21,318 nt of DNA from positions 1 to 21,318 of IMG/VR virus record IMGVR_UViG_3300030090_000555; one strand, given 5' to 3'. A program made the position numbers and the translations under genes. Source of the stretch: a virus. Below are positions 1 to 19,797 of the stretch, piece by piece. A model generated the notes under the pieces. The model was not told the origin of the DNA. It made no database searches and was given only the letters and a program-made list of their open reading frames with translations. Every line of letters begins with the position of its first letter. Position 1 is the first letter of the stretch.

Positions 1-216
1 CTGTGGATTCATACGAAGTCTCCACACTACATAGGTAGATGTAATCCAACTCTTACCTACACCACGAAATCCCTGTATGATTTTACGTCTTGCACCATAT
101 TGTAGATATTCAGCTATGTCTAACTGAACAGGTGTAGGGTCTGGTAGATTTAGATGTCTCCAAGTAACGATTAAGAAATATCTAAAGTCTTGTAGTTTTT
201 TTGGTAGGGGTTGCAA
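1..216 (-). CDS. terL: Terminase large subunit, N-terminal part (T7 gp19-like), cut by window edge
   Basis: This is the ATPase/nuclease motor that packages phage DNA into the procapsid. Only the first 72 codons are inside the window. The translation contains a Walker A motif, GFRGVGKS, at residues 49-56. Before it comes a segment (FRYFLIVTW then LNLPDPTPVQLDIA, residues 11-35) that aligns by eye with the N-terminus of T7 gp19. The only usable initiation codon upstream of Walker A is TTG at 216-214. It directly follows the TAA of the small-subunit gene and is in the same frame, and the first in-frame ATG comes only at residue 69, after Walker A. No Shine-Dalgarno sequence is visible, so initiation probably depends on coupling to the upstream gene. 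The Walker B, motor and nuclease parts lie outside the window. Identity is firm; the start codon is an inference. Confidence 0.93.
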   Translation of the reverse strand, partial: MQPLPKKLQDFRYFLIVTWRHLNLPDPTPVQLDIAEYLQYGARRKIIQGFRGVGKSWITSTYVVWRLRMNPQ

Positions 217-438
217 TTATAAATCAGCTAAAGGTACAGCATCTAGGTCTGGTAGGTTCTCCATAAGCTCTTGCATTGGGTTCTTTTCTACAGGTAAGCA
301 TTCAACACCATTATCTTTTAGAAATTGTCTAGCTACGTTTAGATCCCCTGCCTTTGCTTCTCCACTTGTAATCTTATCTGTCAGTTCTTTTGCAAGAAGT
401 AAATGTAACTTTTCTAGGATTTTAAAATTCTTATCCAT
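217..438 (-). CDS. terS: Terminase small subunit (T7 gp18-like)
   Basis: A 73-residue acidic, mostly helical protein lying directly upstream of the large terminase, the position of T7 gene 18. T7 gp18 is 89 residues long, and the family recognises phage DNA and regulates the packaging ATPase. The N-terminal half (LEKLHLLLAKELTDKITSG) is amphipathic helix, followed by a segment (DLNVARQFLKDNGVE) that resembles small-terminase proteins of marine podoviruses as I remember them. The tail is acidic and proline-containing. ATG at 438-436; only a weak purine stretch precedes it. The stop TAA (219-217) touches the TTG start of the large subunit in the same frame. The call rests on size, position and general resemblance, with no catalytic motif to confirm it. 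Confidence 0.75.
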   Translation of the reverse strand: MDKNFKILEKLHLLLAKELTDKITSGEAKAGDLNVARQFLKDNGVECLPVEKNPMQELMENLPDLDAVPLADL

Positions 439-465
439 GATTAGTCTTGTTTTTAAATAATATAA

Positions 466-774
466 TCACTTCTGATCTGTATTGCCAGATAGAAGATACT
501 TTATCTTACCAAAGAAACCTAGTTTTCTAACTTTTTTGTATAGTCTCATACCTTTCTCATAGCGATATAGTTTGGTTTCTATATCTGATATACGCATTAT
601 TGCTGAAGTTAAAAGCAAATCTTGTAGCTTGGTGTACTTAACTAAGTCTAAACAGTATGCCCTTACAGCTTCATCAGGCATTTGTTCTGTTTCACGTTGT
701 TTTACTTCAATTTCAAACTCTACTTCTGGCGGTGGGTTGCCAACAAGAATCTTAAAAAACTCTTTATGGTTCAT
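466..774 (-). CDS. Conserved phage protein of unknown function upstream of terminase
   Basis: 102 residues. The N-terminus contains NPPPEVEFEIEVKQRE, then a helical middle (CLDLVKYTKLQDLLLTSAIMRISDIETKLYRYE) and a strongly basic C-terminus (KKVRKLGFFGKIKYLL). No signal peptide or enzyme motif is visible. Similar proteins with an NPPPE motif and a helical middle sit next to terminase in marine T7-like phages, as far as I recall; none has a function known to me. ATG at 774-772 is one base past the stop of the 54-residue gene upstream, so the two are translationally coupled. The helical middle suggests self-association, and the position suggests a packaging or virion-assembly accessory; both are inference. 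Confidence 0.75.
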   Translation of the reverse strand: MNHKEFFKILVGNPPPEVEFEIEVKQRETEQMPDEAVRAYCLDLVKYTKLQDLLLTSAIMRISDIETKLYRYEKGMRLYKKVRKLGFFGKIKYLLSGNTDQK

Positions 775-775
775 A

Positions 776-940
776 TCAGTTCATTTTAGGAAACAACTGT
801 TGCTCCAACATATCAACTGCCCTGTCATCAAGAGTGTTCGAGGTCTGTTTACAAATTGCACGAAGAAGATCTACAACAAGTCTCTTTACAGCAGTTGTAG
901 TAAAGAACTTTAGTAGTATTGGTTTTAAGAGTTTCAGCAT
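776..940 (-). CDS. Small conserved phage protein, 54 residues, unknown function
   Basis: Complete short reading frame: ATG at 940-938, TGA at 778-776. The translation begins MLKLLKPILLKFF, continues through a helix ending LVVDLLRAICKQ and closes with NTLDDRAVDMLEQQLFPKMN. The N-terminal half is a basic, hydrophobic helix that could lie on a membrane; the C-terminal half is acidic and helical. It fills the otherwise unexplained space between the divergent promoter region and the next gene, with one base separating it from that gene's ATG. It resembles short proteins in the same position in marine podoviruses from memory. It is the first gene of the packaging operon. A T7-position comparison (the holin 17.5 region) might suggest a membrane role, but nothing in the sequence proves it. 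Confidence 0.72.
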   Translation of the reverse strand: MLKLLKPILLKFFTTTAVKRLVVDLLRAICKQTSNTLDDRAVDMLEQQLFPKMN

Positions 941-1005
941 AATAATCTTGTGTTACTTTCCAAACATAGCTAAAATGCTAGTATTAGACAAGACTTTGCA
1001 CTTCT
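941..1005. promoter_or_regulatory. Divergent intergenic region with two overlapping sigma70-like promoters
   Basis: This 65-base gap is the only divergent junction in the window. On the plus strand, TTGTGT (948-953), 17 bases, then TAAAAT (971-976) predicts a start near 983, about 23 bases before the ATG at 1006. On the minus strand, TTGTCT (991-986), 17 bases, then TATGTT (968-963) predicts a start near 956, about 16 bases before the ATG at 940. Matches to the hexamer consensus are 3/6 and 5/6 on plus and 4/6 and 4/6 on minus. The two elements overlap, so polymerases could exclude each other. In AT-rich DNA such matches arise by chance, so only the need for promoters here plus the exact 17-base spacings support the call. 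Confidence 0.45.
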
Positions 1006-1266
1006 ATGGAAGATCAAGACGAAAAAGAAGGTAATCGTGTTGAAACGATTGTTAAGATTGCGGTGTTAGTTTGGTCTGCTGCAATGTTGACTCTTTCTTA
1101 TTACGAACCTCCTGATGGAAAGAAGATTGTAGACTTTGATCCAACTTTCATAGCTTCGATTTTTTCGGGATCTCTTGCTAGTTTCGGTTTACAGGTTGGT
1201 AAAAAAAAGAACAATAATAATCCTAAAATAGTAGATAATAAAGATACTAACGTAGGCATTAAATGA
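1006..1266 (+). CDS. Small holin-like membrane protein
   Basis: 86 residues, first gene of the plus-strand cassette. A charged N-terminus (about residues 1-13) leads to a clear hydrophobic segment (IVKIAVLVWSAAMLTLSYY, about 15-33). A second, weaker segment follows (FIASIFSGSLASFGLQV, about 48-64), then a basic, Asn/Lys-rich tail with KKK. Short length, two membrane segments and a charged C-terminus fit small two-segment holins, which permeabilise the inner membrane at lysis. They would equally fit any small phage membrane protein, so holin is an inference. No endolysin is adjacent, which weakens it. The TGA overlaps the next gene's start (ATGA at 1263-1266), indicating coupled translation with the exported protein downstream. 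Confidence 0.7.
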   Translation: MEDQDEKEGNRVETIVKIAVLVWSAAMLTLSYYEPPDGKKIVDFDPTFIASIFSGSLASFGLQVGKKKNNNNPKIVDNKDTNVGIK

Positions 1267-1628
1267 AGAAATTATTATTACTAGGTTTGTTTCTAGCTGC
1301 ACCTTGTTACGCAAACGGACTTCCTACTTGGACTACTGGCTCTAGCAATAGAACTGAGAATACTACTCAGACTATAACCAGATCAATAGTTACTCAGAAA
1401 TATGGGTCTGCTCTAAATACTTGGGAAGGCTCTAATATTCAAGTTACCAGTGCTTCTAGTGGTGGTATTACTGATTCAGATGCAGTATTTACACCTTATA
1501 CAACTTCTGCTGATTGGTCATTAAATGTGACTACTAGAGCATCAGGAACTAAACTAGAAGAAATTACACAGAATGATACGATTACGACTACTAGCGTTAT
1601 CACTTCTTTGTCTGTCTTTAGTCAGTAA
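1263..1628 (+). CDS. Exported protein with Sec signal peptide, unknown function
   Basis: 121 residues. The start is a classic signal peptide: MKK, then a Leu-rich core (LLLLGLFLAAPC), then a cleavage site after CYA (about residue 17). The mature part is about 104 residues, rich in Thr, Ser and Asn (TTGSSNRTENTTQTITRS, later SADWSLNVTTRASGTKLEE), low in charge and probably beta-structured, ending in SLSVFSQ. From memory, short exported proteins with this Thr-rich body and an SVFSQ-type end occur in marine cyanophages, without a known function. The Cys at residue 15 is not in a good lipobox (Pro at the position before it), so a lipoprotein is unlikely. The ATG overlaps the upstream stop by four bases and the 3' end overlaps the next gene by 56 bases. 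Expected location is the periplasm or outer envelope. Confidence 0.75.
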   Translation: MKKLLLLGLFLAAPCYANGLPTWTTGSSNRTENTTQTITRSIVTQKYGSALNTWEGSNIQVTSASSGGITDSDAVFTPYTTSADWSLNVTTRASGTKLEEITQNDTITTTSVITSLSVFSQ

Positions 1629-2106
1629 TAAAGCAAGAGCCGAAGGCGATACAAACGTACAGGCTCAACCAAATGCGGTTGGTAATTCAAGTATTATCAA
1701 CCAGAATATGAATATTAATAATGGAATGACAGGTAAACAACAGTTTGGAAACTTAGTTTGTAGTCAACCTACTTTGGCTGTAACTCCTTTTTATACAGGA
1801 AATGATGCACAGGGCGAAGAAACATATTCTATAAACGAAGGTTGGGGAGTACAGATGTCATTTATGATACCTCTGGGAGATAATCAAACTTGTAACGAAT
1901 TATCCAAAGTAAAGCTAGACCTAGCCAAAGAAGAACTAGACAAGCAAGTGCATGATAAACAGCTAGTTCGTGTTTTGAAGTGTAGTCAGCTTCACGCAAG
2001 TGGCTATATGATAAACCCTGCTTCTAAATACGCATACATCTGTAGTGATGTCATTAATATACGAAGTTATGTTAAAGCTAACGCAGAAAAATTTAAAGGC
2101 GACTGA
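1573..2106 (+). CDS. Exported protein with Sec signal peptide, unknown function
   Basis: 177 residues. MIRLR, a hydrophobic core (LLALSLLCLSLVS) and a cleavage site after ARA (near residue 23) form a good Sec signal peptide. The mature protein starts with an Asn/Gln-rich stretch (VGNSSIINQNMNINNG). It continues with a segment that looks beta-structured (GWGVQMSFMIPLGDNQTC), then a Lys/Glu-rich helix (SKVKLDLAKEELDKQVHDKQ), and ends near CSQLHASGYMINP and YICSDV. Four cysteines in the mature region could form disulphides after export. Its first 56 bases lie inside the end of the upstream gene in another frame, so the whole signal peptide is dual-coding. The pairing with another exported protein suggests they act together in the envelope. 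No family function is known to me. Confidence 0.75.
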   Translation: MIRLRLLALSLLCLSLVSNKARAEGDTNVQAQPNAVGNSSIINQNMNINNGMTGKQQFGNLVCSQPTLAVTPFYTGNDAQGEETYSINEGWGVQMSFMIPLGDNQTCNELSKVKLDLAKEELDKQVHDKQLVRVLKCSQLHASGYMINPASKYAYICSDVINIRSYVKANAEKFKGD

Positions 2107-13618: not shown

Positions 13619-16318
13619 TTAAAAGAGTGGTGGATTACGTTTTGCGTCTTTTATCAGTTGTAAGACTTTTGCTTTGTAGTTTTTATCTGTAGCATACAGA
13701 TCATCTGGTTTGCTCAAGATTAAATCAAGTGCTTCTTCAACTGTATTTACACTAACTATACCTTTTCTATCTCTAAAAGGATCATTCCATTCTTCTTTGT
13801 ATTGTTTCATTTGATCTCTTATATCATCAAAATCTACAAAGTCTCTTCTTGTATTCTCAAGACCTTTACCTAAATCTTCTTGCGTTTCTAGATTACTAGA
13901 CTGTCCTTTTTGTATTTGACGTTGTGATGCTTGCAAACCTAAATAATTATTTCTACCCGAAGGCGATTCTCCATTACCTGTTTCTTGCATAGCTTGTGCA
14001 GCAGTCAATTCTGGAAACTTATGTCCAGCTTCTTTTGCTAATTTGTAGAAGATAGGAAAGTTTGTTTCAAATCTTTTTACACCATTAGTTTCTTCTCTAC
14101 CTACTATGCCTAAAGATTCTGCTGTCTGTTTAGTTTCTTCCGCTACTGGCTTACCTTCTAATGTACCAGCAGCTACTGGCTGTTCTATTAATCTTCGTAA
14201 ATTAGATATAAAAGTATCATTTTGTTTTTGTGATAAATCTAAAGGGTTAGGTATTACGTCAGGTCTAGCTGGTGTATCTTCATTGCTAGATGTATTGGTT
14301 TTACCAGTACTTTCTATAGACTCTTTATTTGTATTATTTTCATCTCTAGGTTTAATGTCTATTGGCTTTAAGTCTGTTGTATCTTCTACCTCTACATATT
14401 TCTCTACATTACGAAGAAAAGATGAAGCATCTATATTTTGACTTTCTATAATTTCTATCAATCCTTCTGGTGTTATGTCTGGTTCATATTCTTTATATTG
14501 TTCAGTAACAGTTTCAACAGTAGGTCTTTCTCCTGTATCTTGATCTCTTGTTCTTTCAAATATTTGTTTTATTAAATTTAATTTACCTCTGTTTCTTTCA
14601 AAAATAACATCTTCTTGAGTAGTGTTTCCTTGTGCATATATATATGCTCTAGCTTCTTCTACAGCCAATTCTGCAAGTCTTTCTGCTTCACTTCTAATTT
14701 CTGCTTCTGATGGTGGTGTGCCTTTCCCTGCTTCTCTTTTATAAAACGCATCTAATTTTTTTGTTGTTTCTTTTTGTATATCTCTCATGTTGATACCATC
14801 TCTGGCTTTCTGAAAATCTAAACCATCATTTGTTTTAAATTCTGCTGCAATTTCTCCGTTTATAAAATTTTTATTCTTAGTTAAACTTGATAACTCTCCA
14901 CTAAAATTTTCATCAATACTCTTTTTTACTCTTAAAAAAGCTTCTCTCTGACTTGGTAATTTTAAAGTACTATTCCACCAACTATTTAATTCTTGTATAG
15001 CTGTTAATTTGTTAGGGTAAAATCCTTCAGTTAAAGCATTTATTTCTAATTGATCTAATCTATTAAAAGTCTCTGGTCTTGCTAAAACAACTGTTTCATT
15101 CATGTAATCGGCTATATCTGATGATGGATTTTGTTGCAAGAAATCTTGTACGTCTTGTGCTGTTGTATCAGGGTTAGATAACAAACTATAGGCTTCACTC
15201 TCTAATTTTTCTTTGTTTAACTTTTCTGTGTTATCTAATATGTCATCTTCAAGTTCAAGCATATCTTTTTCAAATTGGTTTTTTATCTTTAAAAACTCTG
15301 GGTGGTTTTTTAATACTGACGTACCACTATCATTAGTAGGAAAGTATTTAGCAAAATCATTTAACAAAGTTCTAGCTCTATCTACTGCACCTTCTTCTCC
15401 ACTAAAAGCTATTTCTAAAGCATTTTCTTTAATTGTATTTATTTGTATTTTTAAAAGACTGTTAAAGTTTTTACCTTTAAATAGTTTTCTTATCTCTTTA
15501 TTGTCATTAGCTAAATCATTTCTTAAATCTTTCTCTGCATCTATTAACGCTTGTCCTTCTAAACCTGCTAATTTTTTATACTTGTTTATAGCAGTATTTA
15601 TTTTATTTACTGATACTTGTTTGTAAGATTCAAAAAGTTGTTGTGGATATTCTGAACGTGATAGTTCTTGTATTCTATCGTGTGCTTTATCTAATTCTGG
15701 TACAAAGAATTTATTAAAGTAATAAGGTTCAACATCTAGTTTTTCTATATATGGACTTCTATTTGTTGCTTGCCAGTTTTGGAATTGAATACTGTTAGTA
15801 GGAAATGATGAAATAGGTCTTTCTATACCTTTATCATCTAATGCAGTATCAGTATAAAATCTATTTTCTAAGTTATCAGCAAGGGTTTGACCAAGTAATG
15901 TAGCTTTTCTTTTATTGAAATTGTGTTTAAACCAAGGACTTCTGCCAGCTAATATCTGTGCTTCTGTTGAACCTCTTGTTTTTTCTACATTTTGTAAAGT
16001 ATTACCCCATTCTTGTTCTGTATTCTCAAGTTCTGCTTCTTCTGGAAACTGTTGATCTACTGCTTGATTATATATATCTACATAGTTAGGACTTTTTGGG
16101 TCATATATTTCTTTAGCTGCTTGCTCTGCTTCAGCACCTATAATATCTCTTTGTTTATCAATCTCACTTTGCAACATCTTTCTAAGACTAGGATTGATGA
16201 TAGATAAAGCACTTGCAAGCTGACCAAAAGCATCATTTTGTGTAGTCGCAGCAGCAATTCTACTCTGTCTAACAAAAGTATCTACTGGTCTTGCTTGTGG
16301 CTGAAAGCTATTGGTCAT
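13619..16318 (-). CDS. Internal virion protein, T7 gp15-like, with C-terminal glucosaminidase (GH73/FlgJ-like) domain
   Basis: 899 residues against 747 for T7 gp15. Residues 1 to about 640 are long charged helices, as expected for an inner-core protein. Residues 649-696 form a disordered Asn/Thr/Pro linker. From about 740 to the end is a muralytic domain: LTAAQAMQETGNGE with a probable catalytic Glu at 779, then NNYLGLQ, then DFVDFDDIRDQM, and YATDKNYKAKVLQLI (Tyr near 875). This matches the order and spacing of FlgJ/GH73 peptidoglycan hydrolases, which cut the glycan strand. Its likely job is to open the cell wall during DNA entry, replacing the transglycosylase that T7 keeps on gp16. ATG at 16318 shares one base with the previous stop (TAATG). 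Confidence 0.88.
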   Translation of the reverse strand: MTNSFQPQARPVDTFVRQSRIAAATTQNDAFGQLASALSIINPSLRKMLQSEIDKQRDIIGAEAEQAAKEIYDPKSPNYVDIYNQAVDQQFPEEAELENTEQEWGNTLQNVEKTRGSTEAQILAGRSPWFKHNFNKRKATLLGQTLADNLENRFYTDTALDDKGIERPISSFPTNSIQFQNWQATNRSPYIEKLDVEPYYFNKFFVPELDKAHDRIQELSRSEYPQQLFESYKQVSVNKINTAINKYKKLAGLEGQALIDAEKDLRNDLANDNKEIRKLFKGKNFNSLLKIQINTIKENALEIAFSGEEGAVDRARTLLNDFAKYFPTNDSGTSVLKNHPEFLKIKNQFEKDMLELEDDILDNTEKLNKEKLESEAYSLLSNPDTTAQDVQDFLQQNPSSDIADYMNETVVLARPETFNRLDQLEINALTEGFYPNKLTAIQELNSWWNSTLKLPSQREAFLRVKKSIDENFSGELSSLTKNKNFINGEIAAEFKTNDGLDFQKARDGINMRDIQKETTKKLDAFYKREAGKGTPPSEAEIRSEAERLAELAVEEARAYIYAQGNTTQEDVIFERNRGKLNLIKQIFERTRDQDTGERPTVETVTEQYKEYEPDITPEGLIEIIESQNIDASSFLRNVEKYVEVEDTTDLKPIDIKPRDENNTNKESIESTGKTNTSSNEDTPARPDVIPNPLDLSQKQNDTFISNLRRLIEQPVAAGTLEGKPVAEETKQTAESLGIVGREETNGVKRFETNFPIFYKLAKEAGHKFPELTAAQAMQETGNGESPSGRNNYLGLQASQRQIQKGQSSNLETQEDLGKGLENTRRDFVDFDDIRDQMKQYKEEWNDPFRDRKGIVSVNTVEEALDLILSKPDDLYATDKNYKAKVLQLIKDAKRNPPLF

Positions 16319-16890
16319 TATCTATTAAAGGCTATGTAGCTATTTAGTCCTAATGTAGCAGCTTCAGCTACTGTATCTAGCAGCGTTGGTGCTTTTGATG
16401 CTTGATTATATGCTTGATTTTGGAAGTCAATAGCTTCATTTCTTCTGCTTGCTCGTTGTGCTATAAGCCCTTCTAAATCTCTTTCATACTGTCTATCTGC
16501 TGATTCCATTGTTTGATTGATAGTATCTCTTAATTTCCCTGCTTGTCTCTGTGCATCTCTATCTAATAACGCAGCTAAGTTACCTGATATACCTTCTGTT
16601 GTTGCAATAGCTCCTTGTGCTTCTAATTGTTTGATAGAAGCTTCTTGTCTTCTCTGTGCTGCTGCTTGTCTTTCTTCTCTTAATCTTGCACTTAAACCTT
16701 CCTGTTGTGCAGAAAACGCAGCGTCAGCAGATAAAGCACTACGTCTTGCAGATTCGTAGGCATAACTAGCTTGTTGGTTTGCTACTCTTTGTGCTTGTAC
16801 TGTGCTTGCTACACCTATAGCAAGACTACCAAGAAATAACCCACCAGCTAATTTACTTGTAAGTCCAAGGGCAGGGATAGCAGCACACAT
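16318..16890 (-). CDS. Internal virion protein, T7 gp14-like
   Basis: 190 residues, close to T7 gp14 (196). The start, MCAAIPALGLTSKLAGG, mirrors the MC-then-AAIP beginning of T7 gp14. A hydrophobic N-terminal region (GGLFLGSLAIGVASTV, about residues 15-31) is followed by a long Ala/Gln/Arg-rich helix (residues 35-165), typical of this ejected outer-membrane channel component. The C-terminus (TLLDTVAEAATLGLNSYIAF) is again hydrophobic. ATG at 16890 shares one base with the upstream TAA, and its own stop shares one base with the gp15-like start, so gp13-14-15 look translationally coupled. Confidence 0.9.
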   Translation of the reverse strand: MCAAIPALGLTSKLAGGLFLGSLAIGVASTVQAQRVANQQASYAYESARRSALSADAAFSAQQEGLSARLREERQAAAQRRQEASIKQLEAQGAIATTEGISGNLAALLDRDAQRQAGKLRDTINQTMESADRQYERDLEGLIAQRASRRNEAIDFQNQAYNQASKAPTLLDTVAEAATLGLNSYIAFNR

Positions 16891-17342
16891 TACTTGATCC
16901 TCATAAATTCAAAGAATGGTTTTTTATGTTCCCCATATTCTTTATGGTATTTAATAAATTGAAATCCAAGAGATTTCAACCACTTAATTGCAGCTTCATT
17001 CTCTGCATATACTACATTGTATAGGATTTTGTAAGATTTCAACAGACTGTCAACCCATTTCCTACCTTCTCGTATTAATTGGATTCTATATTGTTTATTA
17101 CTAAACAATTCATCTGTAGTTATTAACCATATACAACCACCAGTAACCACACCACATATACCCATTGGTTGATCGTTGTCTCCAGCTACAGTCATTACAG
17201 TTTTACTATGTAGATATGACAGTCGTAATGCTTCTTCTGCATCTTCATTTGTTTGATATAAAATTTCTAACCTATCCATTTTTCTAATATGAGAACAAAC
17301 ATAATTTAAATCTGATAACTTTGATTTCCTTAAATATCCCAT
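16890..17342 (-). CDS. Internal virion protein, T7 gp13-like (GNAT-type fold)
   Basis: 150 residues against 138 in T7 gp13, in the gene 13 position. Conserved features by eye: GGCIWLITTDELF (T7 has a similar GDQCWFVTSDQVW stretch), LIREGRKWVDSLLK and AAIKWLKSLGFQF (T7: SHIRFLKTIGAVF). The layout is that of a GNAT acetyltransferase fold; acetyltransferase activity is not established for the phage protein, and I do not see a clear acetyl-CoA loop. I chose ATG 17342-17340 (MGYLRKSKLSDLNY), one base after the gp12 stop. The longer frame from 17390 would overlap gp12 by 47 bases and adds 16 residues unlike the family start. Confidence 0.82.
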   Translation of the reverse strand: MGYLRKSKLSDLNYVCSHIRKMDRLEILYQTNEDAEEALRLSYLHSKTVMTVAGDNDQPMGICGVVTGGCIWLITTDELFSNKQYRIQLIREGRKWVDSLLKSYKILYNVVYAENEAAIKWLKSLGFQFIKYHKEYGEHKKPFFEFMRIK

Positions 17343-17343
17343 A

Positions 17344-19797
17344 TTACATACGCTTACTTCTGAGATAATACATAGCTTCGTATTCTGCACTAGATAATTG
17401 TGTGGGTAGAAAGCTATTGTTTTTTATATCTATACTTACTTTATTAGCTCTACTCATAACTGGTACTTTAAATGTTCCTGTCTCTAAATTTATCTGTCCA
17501 ACAGTTGTAGATGGAGAACCTATTAAACGACCAGTAAATTTGTGAGTACTTGTATCTCGATATTGAGGAGTAACTTCTACTTTAAAAAATCCTGTATCTT
17601 CAAACTTTATATAAAAATATCTTAGCTGCAATCTGCCACTTAGAATCTCTGCACTATTTTGACCAGCTATCTCTGTTATTCTTTGGTTGCTAAATCTGTA
17701 ATGAAATTCGTATGGTTCTCCAATAATAAATTTTGCATTTCTATAATCTCCTTCTGCTTCTATTGTTGATGTTGAACCATCAGTACTATTAGTTGTACTG
17801 ATAATAGCTCCACTCTTTAAAGTATGTGTATTGCCTACTATATCTACATAAGTGCTAGTTTCACTTGATCCTAAATATCTACCTACTATAGTCATAGAAG
17901 CTCGCAATCTATATGGAACAGTGAATGTAGATTTCTTGGTAGTGTTGTTATAAGTTACCGATACACCTGTTGTAGCTTCAGTAACTTTATGGTCTAAGTA
18001 AAATTCAAACTCAGCATTAGGTTCTGTAAAGTCATTTTCAAATGGTATCTTTTCAAGTGTTGTACCATTAGCTTCTTCTATAACACAAAATAAATCTGTA
18101 CCAATAAAGTCTATATTTCTAATTATTCGATTGGAATTTATTGTAAATGTAAACCAAGAGTTTAAAACTTTTTGACCATTAGCACCATACAGCCAGCGAT
18201 TTACATACAGTTTGTTTGGATTATCAGTGCCTAATAAAACCAAAACGTCTTGGTTGTTTGATACTGCTAGTTTAAATATTCCACTTGGTATTAGTCTTGG
18301 TACATGAATCGTGGTATTAGTTGCATCTTTTACTGTGACATCTGATTGAGTAATATATTCTCTAACACCAGCAAACGTACCTTTCTCAGTTAAAAAATAA
18401 ATACTAGATCCAGAACCCACAGGACTAGCAGCATCACTACTTTCAAATTCTGTTGCGACTAGCACGTTAGCTGTCTTTGGAGTTAAGTTGTCTGCTGAAC
18501 TACTTAATACAAACTGTGTTTGATCTGAGAATACAATTAACTGTTCTCCCATAGTTACTGCATTTTTAAGAATCGCAACTTTAGTATGTGATGCAGCTAC
18601 GTCTATAGGGTCTGAGTCAATAACAGATAAGACTGTTTCTGGAAAGAAGTTAAAGAACTCACTAACTCTTGATAGTACTACGTTGTCATCAGCTAGAAAG
18701 CCTAACCTATTTCTAAAAAAGAATACGTTATTTATTTTTGAATCTATAAAAGATGGATCGGGTGCAGAATCTAAATCTCCAACTGTACGTTCTCCCCATT
18801 TAGGTAACGTATAATCTGTACCATTGATTGTATATGTATCTCCATCTACTCTTGCAAATCTAAAGTTGCCATCTGCTTGTCTAATTAAAACGTGTGGCAT
18901 AGTGTCATAATTAAATTTAAACTTAATGCCAGCTTCAACTGTTTCTTCCCATTGCCCTTCTTCTAAAGCACCACCATTATTAGTAACAAATTTAACGTAG
19001 TAGTTGTCAAAGTTAGTTGATTCATCTCCTTTAACTTCGACCACATATCCATTAGGAGATACAGTAGGCAGATCAGTAAATCTTTGAATTGAGTCTTTTA
19101 CTATTGTTAGCTGTGTATTACCTTGTGTATCTGAACCATCAATAGAAAAATTAGACCCATCATTTTTTTTGATATGAAGAACACTTCCATTCTGTGCAAT
19201 CGTAAACCCTGTAAGTCCAGAGTTAAGTCCGTTCTTTAAATCAGTTGCTACTTGTTCTGTACTTAAAGTTGAATCTCCATCTGTATTATCAGTAACTGTA
19301 ACTCCATCTACTGTGACTGAATACGTTGTTTTATCTGAAACATTATTTACAAAGACTACAGCTTGTGTGATGTTACCACTTGATACTGTTGTATCCATTT
19401 GTGCTACGACACTTGTATTTACTACAAAAGTAAAGTCAGCAATAGTTACTGTTTTAATAACATTACGAGGATTACTTGTGTTTAAATAGTTAGTTCCATC
19501 AGGTTTAACTACTGTCTTTTCTGTTCCGTCTAATTCAAAAACTTTTACATTACCATTACTAAATACAGCTACATACTGTTCTGTTGCATCTCTATTGATA
19601 GTTTGAATATGTACATTACCTATTGTCGTATTACTTAAATTAGTTATATATTGCAAGCCTGATCTTTTTATTAATCCAATTACAGGGTTGCTATCAGCAT
19701 TATCTTGAATCTCTGCGTGGTCTGCTTGTTTAGCTGCATCAGAAGATTGTGATACACCTCTTAGTAATGTAGGTATAGATCTTGAAATAACAGGCAT
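17344..19797 (-). CDS. Tail tubular protein B (nozzle), T7 gp12-like
   Basis: 817 residues against 794 in T7 gp12. The N-terminus (SRSIPTLLRGVSQSSDAAKQ, then NADSNPVIGLIKRSG) is the hallmark of the podovirus nozzle protein. The middle holds the RNRLGFLADDNVVLSRVSEFFNF-type region (written in two parts: RNRLGFLADDNV and LSRVSEFFNFFP) around residues 360-390, and the C-terminal part is beta-rich. Six copies form the tail nozzle below the gp11 ring, closing the channel until ejection. It starts two bases after the gp11 stop and ends in SKRM one base before the gp13-like start. Nothing is missing or broken. Confidence 0.96.
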   Translation of the reverse strand: MPVISRSIPTLLRGVSQSSDAAKQADHAEIQDNADSNPVIGLIKRSGLQYITNLSNTTIGNVHIQTINRDATEQYVAVFSNGNVKVFELDGTEKTVVKPDGTNYLNTSNPRNVIKTVTIADFTFVVNTSVVAQMDTTVSSGNITQAVVFVNNVSDKTTYSVTVDGVTVTDNTDGDSTLSTEQVATDLKNGLNSGLTGFTIAQNGSVLHIKKNDGSNFSIDGSDTQGNTQLTIVKDSIQRFTDLPTVSPNGYVVEVKGDESTNFDNYYVKFVTNNGGALEEGQWEETVEAGIKFKFNYDTMPHVLIRQADGNFRFARVDGDTYTINGTDYTLPKWGERTVGDLDSAPDPSFIDSKINNVFFFRNRLGFLADDNVVLSRVSEFFNFFPETVLSVIDSDPIDVAASHTKVAILKNAVTMGEQLIVFSDQTQFVLSSSADNLTPKTANVLVATEFESSDAASPVGSGSSIYFLTEKGTFAGVREYITQSDVTVKDATNTTIHVPRLIPSGIFKLAVSNNQDVLVLLGTDNPNKLYVNRWLYGANGQKVLNSWFTFTINSNRIIRNIDFIGTDLFCVIEEANGTTLEKIPFENDFTEPNAEFEFYLDHKVTEATTGVSVTYNNTTKKSTFTVPYRLRASMTIVGRYLGSSETSTYVDIVGNTHTLKSGAIISTTNSTDGSTSTIEAEGDYRNAKFIIGEPYEFHYRFSNQRITEIAGQNSAEILSGRLQLRYFYIKFEDTGFFKVEVTPQYRDTSTHKFTGRLIGSPSTTVGQINLETGTFKVPVMSRANKVSIDIKNNSFLPTQLSSAEYEAMYYLRSKRM

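Follow-up and report, generated by a model that had tools for sequence, protein, structure and literature searches.

The abutting TerS stop and TerL TTG start of a T7-like phage probably form an ordinary close-packed late-region junction

The genes for the terminase small subunit (TerS) and the terminase large subunit (TerL) meet without a gap in the window, i.e., the whole stretch of DNA analysed here, a virus record of 21,318 bases. We judge it likely that this is an ordinary close-packed junction of the late region, in which the TAA of TerS is followed by an adjacent TTG start of TerL; TerL would be translated by reinitiation, and a fusion of both subunits is neither needed nor conserved. 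The main value of this result is a correction: the in-frame stop in front of TerL should not be read as a sign of a hidden fusion.

The window comes from a T7-like marine phage and has late genes on its minus strand, where capsid and tail genes, TerS and the start of TerL were identified by profile matches. The nearest named relative found was the Prochlorococcus phage P-SCSP2 (OM416780), with 87.9% DNA identity across window positions 1-1000, which the available text of PMC9860041 places in the MPP-C cyanopodoviruses. Within the late region, three genes lie on the opposite strand at 1006-2106 (+), with matches to PF20048 (DUF6450), phrog_650 and phrog_1755; two of them overlap (1263-1628 and 1573-2106). 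At the same relative position and in the same orientation, P-SCSP2 carries three similarly sized genes, a likeness judged by layout. The minus-strand gene at 16890-17390 belongs to the internal virion protein family phrog_308 and has a second match, to an acetyltransferase family (E 7.6e-05); the protein encoded at 13619-16318 on that strand is large, and its C-terminal region (residues 744-892) is endolysin-like.

TerS (217..438, minus strand) encodes 73 amino acids, from an ATG start to a TAA stop at 217..219. It matches phrog_891 and DNA_Packaging_2 (PF11123; E 1.7e-19), the latter with 70.1 bits, exceeding the curated cut-off of 27.5. On the same strand, 1..216 encodes the N-terminal 72 amino acids of TerL, the gene being cut by the window end; this part matches phrog_38 (E 1.9e-12) and is 97.2% identical to P-SCSP2 TerL across 71 amino acids. 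The stretch GFRGVGKS of TerL (49..72, minus strand) we take to be the Walker A motif. Based on the sequence and on relatives, the TerL start codon was assigned to the TTG at 214..216, which adjoins the TerS stop in the same frame: the minus-strand junction reads GCT GAT TTA TAA TTG CAA CCC CTA, with a 0-nt gap and in one frame. This agrees exactly with the gapless, in-frame arrangement described in an earlier note on this DNA. Two further statements of that note, that TTG is the only TerL start before the Walker A motif and that TerL has no Shine-Dalgarno (SD) sequence, were borne out: codons 1-48 contain no other ATG, GTG or TTG, and pairing of the preceding 20 nt with the anti-SD core reaches only -2.0 kcal/mol. 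A TATAAT-like string across the junction was considered as a promoter and rejected by reasoning alone, as it would put the transcription start within TerL and late genes of this family are transcribed by the phage polymerase.

The TAA-TTG arrangement is conserved among close relatives. Loci were collected from the best 80 of 594 for the TerL N-terminus and the best 80 of 270 for TerS (together, the best-80 sets), plus P-SCSP2; both sets share many contigs, and one locus is identical. Close relatives were counted at a TerL identity of at least 90%, window and P-SCSP2 included, which excluded L164 and L167. This gave 157 loci from the best-80 sets, 106 with TerS directly before TerL (72 non-identical) and 51 with genes between them (26 non-identical). 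TAA was directly followed by TTG in 72/72 non-identical direct junctions of the best-80 sets, window and P-SCSP2 counted, and the GenBank annotation of P-SCSP2 starts TerL from the same TTG, directly after the TerS TAA. A pattern scan used a DNA pattern of the TerL N-terminus that requires xTG at the start and is blind to the upstream sequence. It yielded 80 contigs among the matches listed, from 119 matching stretches, some of them common to the close-relative set; TerS and TerL adjoined directly in 54 and were separated by inserted genes in 23, while the remaining 3 came without TerS shown. TAA stood directly before TTG in 51 of the 54 direct junctions among the matches listed, 44 with a single TAA and 7 with tandem stops, and L378 reads TAA TCA TTG.

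The shared junction decides on the possibility that the true sequence is TAATG, with the ATG in another frame and one T added by sequencing or assembly. Overlaps of this kind do occur in the P-SCSP1 group, where ATG precedes the end of the TerS stop by 1 or 4 nt (TAATG- or ATGA-like) in 24 of 33 pairs. Such an error was nevertheless rejected and has a negligible probability, because independent contigs and the isolate P-SCSP2 have the same junction; the concern about a misread at 205-225 can therefore be set aside.

The earlier note had further proposed that programmed or leaky readthrough of the TAA yields a functional TerS-TerL fusion that fixes the subunit stoichiometry. In favor of this, a lone in-phase TAA precedes TTG in 67 of the 72 non-identical direct junctions of the best-80 sets. 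In the remaining 5/72, however, an extra in-frame stop comes first (4 TGA TAA TTG and 1 TAA TAA TTG), matching the tandem stops in 7/54 direct pattern-scan junctions among the matches listed. Two loci of the pattern scan have a 1-nt gap and are out of frame: L405 (TAG G ATG) is a homologue of the kind the note itself had named as evidence against a fusion, with ATG, another frame and a gap, and L370 (TAG T GTG) is alike with GTG. At the 51/157 close loci of the best-80 sets with accessory genes between TerS and TerL (contigs collected twice included), a fusion cannot form, and the TerL start codon is retained in all 157 loci of these sets.

The phase is not kept in more distant groups. In the P-SCSP1 group (group B; TerL 64% identical), 81 loci gave 33 non-identical pairs with the TerS end at most 75 nt from the TerL match, leaving out 1 locus without TerS hit, 9 identical ones and 38 with TerS further away. 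Relative to TerL, 24 pairs were in phase 2, 7 in phase 1 and 2 in phase 0, so that 31/33 were out of frame; the nearest start was mostly an ATG, placed 1 nt before the end of the TerS stop in 15 pairs and 4 nt before it in 9. The HTVC025P group (group C) of 87 loci retained 43 pairs (36 without TerS hit, 1 identical and 7 further away were left out), with phase 1 in 36, phase 0 in 4 and phase 2 in 3, i.e., 39/43 out of frame. Since both groups mostly show other phases, the in-frame adjacency is mainly peculiar to the window's own group. Comparison across relatives, as the note had recommended, thus gave a divided answer: TAA followed by TTG is kept in close direct junctions, whereas neither the phase nor the single stop is kept more widely. 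What is conserved is the closeness of stop and start, not the phase.

Features that would favor readthrough did not stand out at the junction either. Two window stretches across it folded no better than shuffled sequences (z 0.56 and 1.44), and a fold of the RNA that would mask the TTG or promote readthrough was rejected on this basis. Synonymous variation in the last ten TerS codons was 0.10 compared to 0.24 upstream (57 unique sequences), ranking 9/101 among ten-codon windows, which is no outstanding constraint. As the variation was no higher in 8/100 other windows, some of which overlap the last-ten window, a hidden conserved element was rejected and we claim nothing special for the TerS end. 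Readthrough therefore fails on its usual marks: the single in-phase stop is not conserved, and neither a stimulatory structure (two window stretches) nor a constrained context was found. With both the phase and the single stop variable among relatives, a fusion cannot be regarded as a conserved product; the tandem stops, the homologues in another frame and the intervening genes speak against the proposed control of stoichiometry, and we consider it very improbable.

Whichever gene lies upstream, the start position of TerL is kept. The codon ahead of the conserved TerL N-terminus was TTG, ATG or GTG in 157/157 loci of the best-80 sets, and no other in-frame ATG, GTG or TTG was present upstream of it in these 157 loci. 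The resulting N-terminus is of normal length, with 9 residues before DFR in the window, 12 in P-SCSP1k and 10 in HTVC025P. In all likelihood the conserved position is where TerL truly starts, since it is kept through changes of spacing, the use of three different start codons and many different genes upstream. TTG starts are scarce in P-SCSP2 (2/44 annotated starts), making the TTG the rarer part of the junction. The TTG start can be taken as real, and gene callers should leave the TerL start unmoved.

Genes inserted between TerS and TerL were seen in 23/80 pattern-scan contigs among the matches listed, in addition to the close loci described above; examples are L066:1186-2511, L018:1876-2490, L033:1544-2485, L015:2362-2511 and L406:3569-4373. 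The window itself has no insert. Representatives of these cassette genes were scanned against families. They include C5 cytosine methylases (PF00145), phrog_757 DNA methyltransferases and Mom-like modification proteins (PF25680, phrog_1384); one protein weakly matches a tRNA-methyltransferase model (PF02005), and proteins of 50-56 amino acids gave zinc-ribbon matches below threshold. Several further ORFs are small, one weakly matching an unknown PHROG and the rest having no useful match. Three small basic ORFs (L028:1368-1523, L051:2321-2491 and L002:931-1152; 52-74 amino acids, no family) start alike by eye and are possibly one diverged family. The L406 insert holds tandem cassette genes, one with the weak tRNA-methyltransferase-model match and one zinc-ribbon-like; genes like them occur singly in L039 and L015, which suggests modular exchange.

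Cassettes fit closely between both terminase genes. Relative to the TerS stop, most start at -4 to +4 nt, with exceptions at +9 (L339) and +11 (L406); two loci, L016 and L064, have their longest cassette ORF 156-162 nt further on. At the other end, the distance between the end of the last cassette ORF (the longest ORF, or in L406 the second) and the TerL start was -10 to +17 nt in 26/26 non-identical loci of the best-80 sets and in 23/23 pattern-scan loci among the matches listed. TerL starts with ATG in 13, TTG in 12 and GTG in 1 of the 26 non-identical cassette loci of the best-80 sets. Across the close-relative and pattern-scan sets, among the matches listed, TTG or GTG was confined to cases with the preceding stop 0-10 nt ahead of the start, and ATG was used at every +17 overlap. 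L018, L033, L034 and L405 have ATG although the stop sits just before the start. This trend toward weak starts is not general, because GTG lies 8 nt before the TerS stop end in 3/33 pairs of the P-SCSP1 group.

Synthesis of TerL by termination-reinitiation coupling is plausible. On this reading, most TerL would come from ribosomes that finish TerS, or an inserted cassette gene, and then reinitiate at the adjacent weak start, and TerL synthesis would be tied to that of TerS and held below it. If TerL is fed by terminating ribosomes, stop and start should stay close together. The 0-nt spacing, the missing SD, the weak start codon and the closeness kept with a cassette gene upstream all favor coupling, and the spacing, 0 nt here and -10 to +17 nt with other upstream genes, suits that of coupled pairs. 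According to the available part of PMC10666635, reinitiation works at overlaps and very short distances and is nearly gone by ~20 nt. The accessible text of PMC6728339 is mixed: the effect of removing the SD varied by gene pair, between none and complete loss, and reinitiation fell in 4/5 E. coli pairs, Cyanobacteria have SD sequences more commonly at overlapping pairs (~40% of which have one) than at leading genes, and an adjacent archaeal pair, UGAGUG, is cited as uncoupled.

The same junction could be served by free ribosomes that initiate TerL at the TTG independently of an SD, in an unstructured AU-rich site, the abutting stop reflecting mere packing. SD-less starts are indeed frequent, with anti-SD pairing weaker than -4 kcal/mol at 24/43 starts in P-SCSP2 and no SD at 13/15 listed starts in the window, and the junction is not notably structured. 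Packing is tight generally: 26/39 same-strand junctions of P-SCSP2 lie within -30 to +5 nt, 3 of them at exactly 0, and 25/39 within -17 to +10 nt, so closeness alone says little about coupling. Against such de novo initiation stand the stop-start closeness with all cassette genes seen and the fact that a TTG start without SD is usually weak. We regard it as rather unlikely, while giving it more weight than readthrough or error. Adjacency did not make up for a missing SD in P-SCSP2, where 11/20 SD-less starts were stop-adjacent versus 15/19 with SD. The coupling step of the preferred reading, reinitiation at a close-packed junction, is one we infer, because P-SCSP2 junctions are equally tight, SD-less starts are common and not more often stop-adjacent, and PMC6728339 is mixed. 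Among the literature titles and abstract openings listed, none described TerS-TerL coupling, readthrough or a TTG-started terminase.

A by-product of the analysis is more interesting than the junction itself. In this group the junction often holds accessory genes, many of them for DNA modification. Tentatively, it may serve the phage clade as a recurrent docking slot whose accessory genes mostly modify DNA (C5 methylases, phrog_757 methyltransferases and Mom-like proteins, besides zinc-ribbon and small basic proteins), with entry limited by translation: an insert would have to begin where TerS stops and finish where TerL begins, taking over the coupling of TerL to TerS. No account of a cargo slot at the terminase junction was met by literature title, and we do not claim that the slot is undescribed. 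If coupling is true, the junction would be a naturally occurring reinitiation site with a zero gap, a TTG start and no SD, in a marine phage group that is abundant. Relatives with other genes upstream of TerL offer ready variants for relating reinitiation to spacing and start codon.

P-SCSP2 is like the window in that the TerS TAA is directly followed by the TerL TTG; its last TerS codon is CTA instead of TTA, with otherwise no relevant difference at the junction. Coupled unidirectional gene pairs resemble the window pair in a stop-start spacing within the distance range of measured coupling and in being partners of one complex. In the available part of PMC10666635, known close pairs mostly overlap by 1 or 4 nt and are therefore out of frame. 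The window pair differs from known coupled pairs in its 0-nt spacing, shared frame, missing SD and TTG start, and its coupling is a predicted one. With a PF11123 TerS and a TerL N-terminal ATPase region containing the putative Walker A motif, it fits a T7-type terminase. Genes 18 and 19 of T7 (TerS and TerL) belong to the same families, PF11123 and phrog_38; unlike in the window, other genes presumably lie between them.
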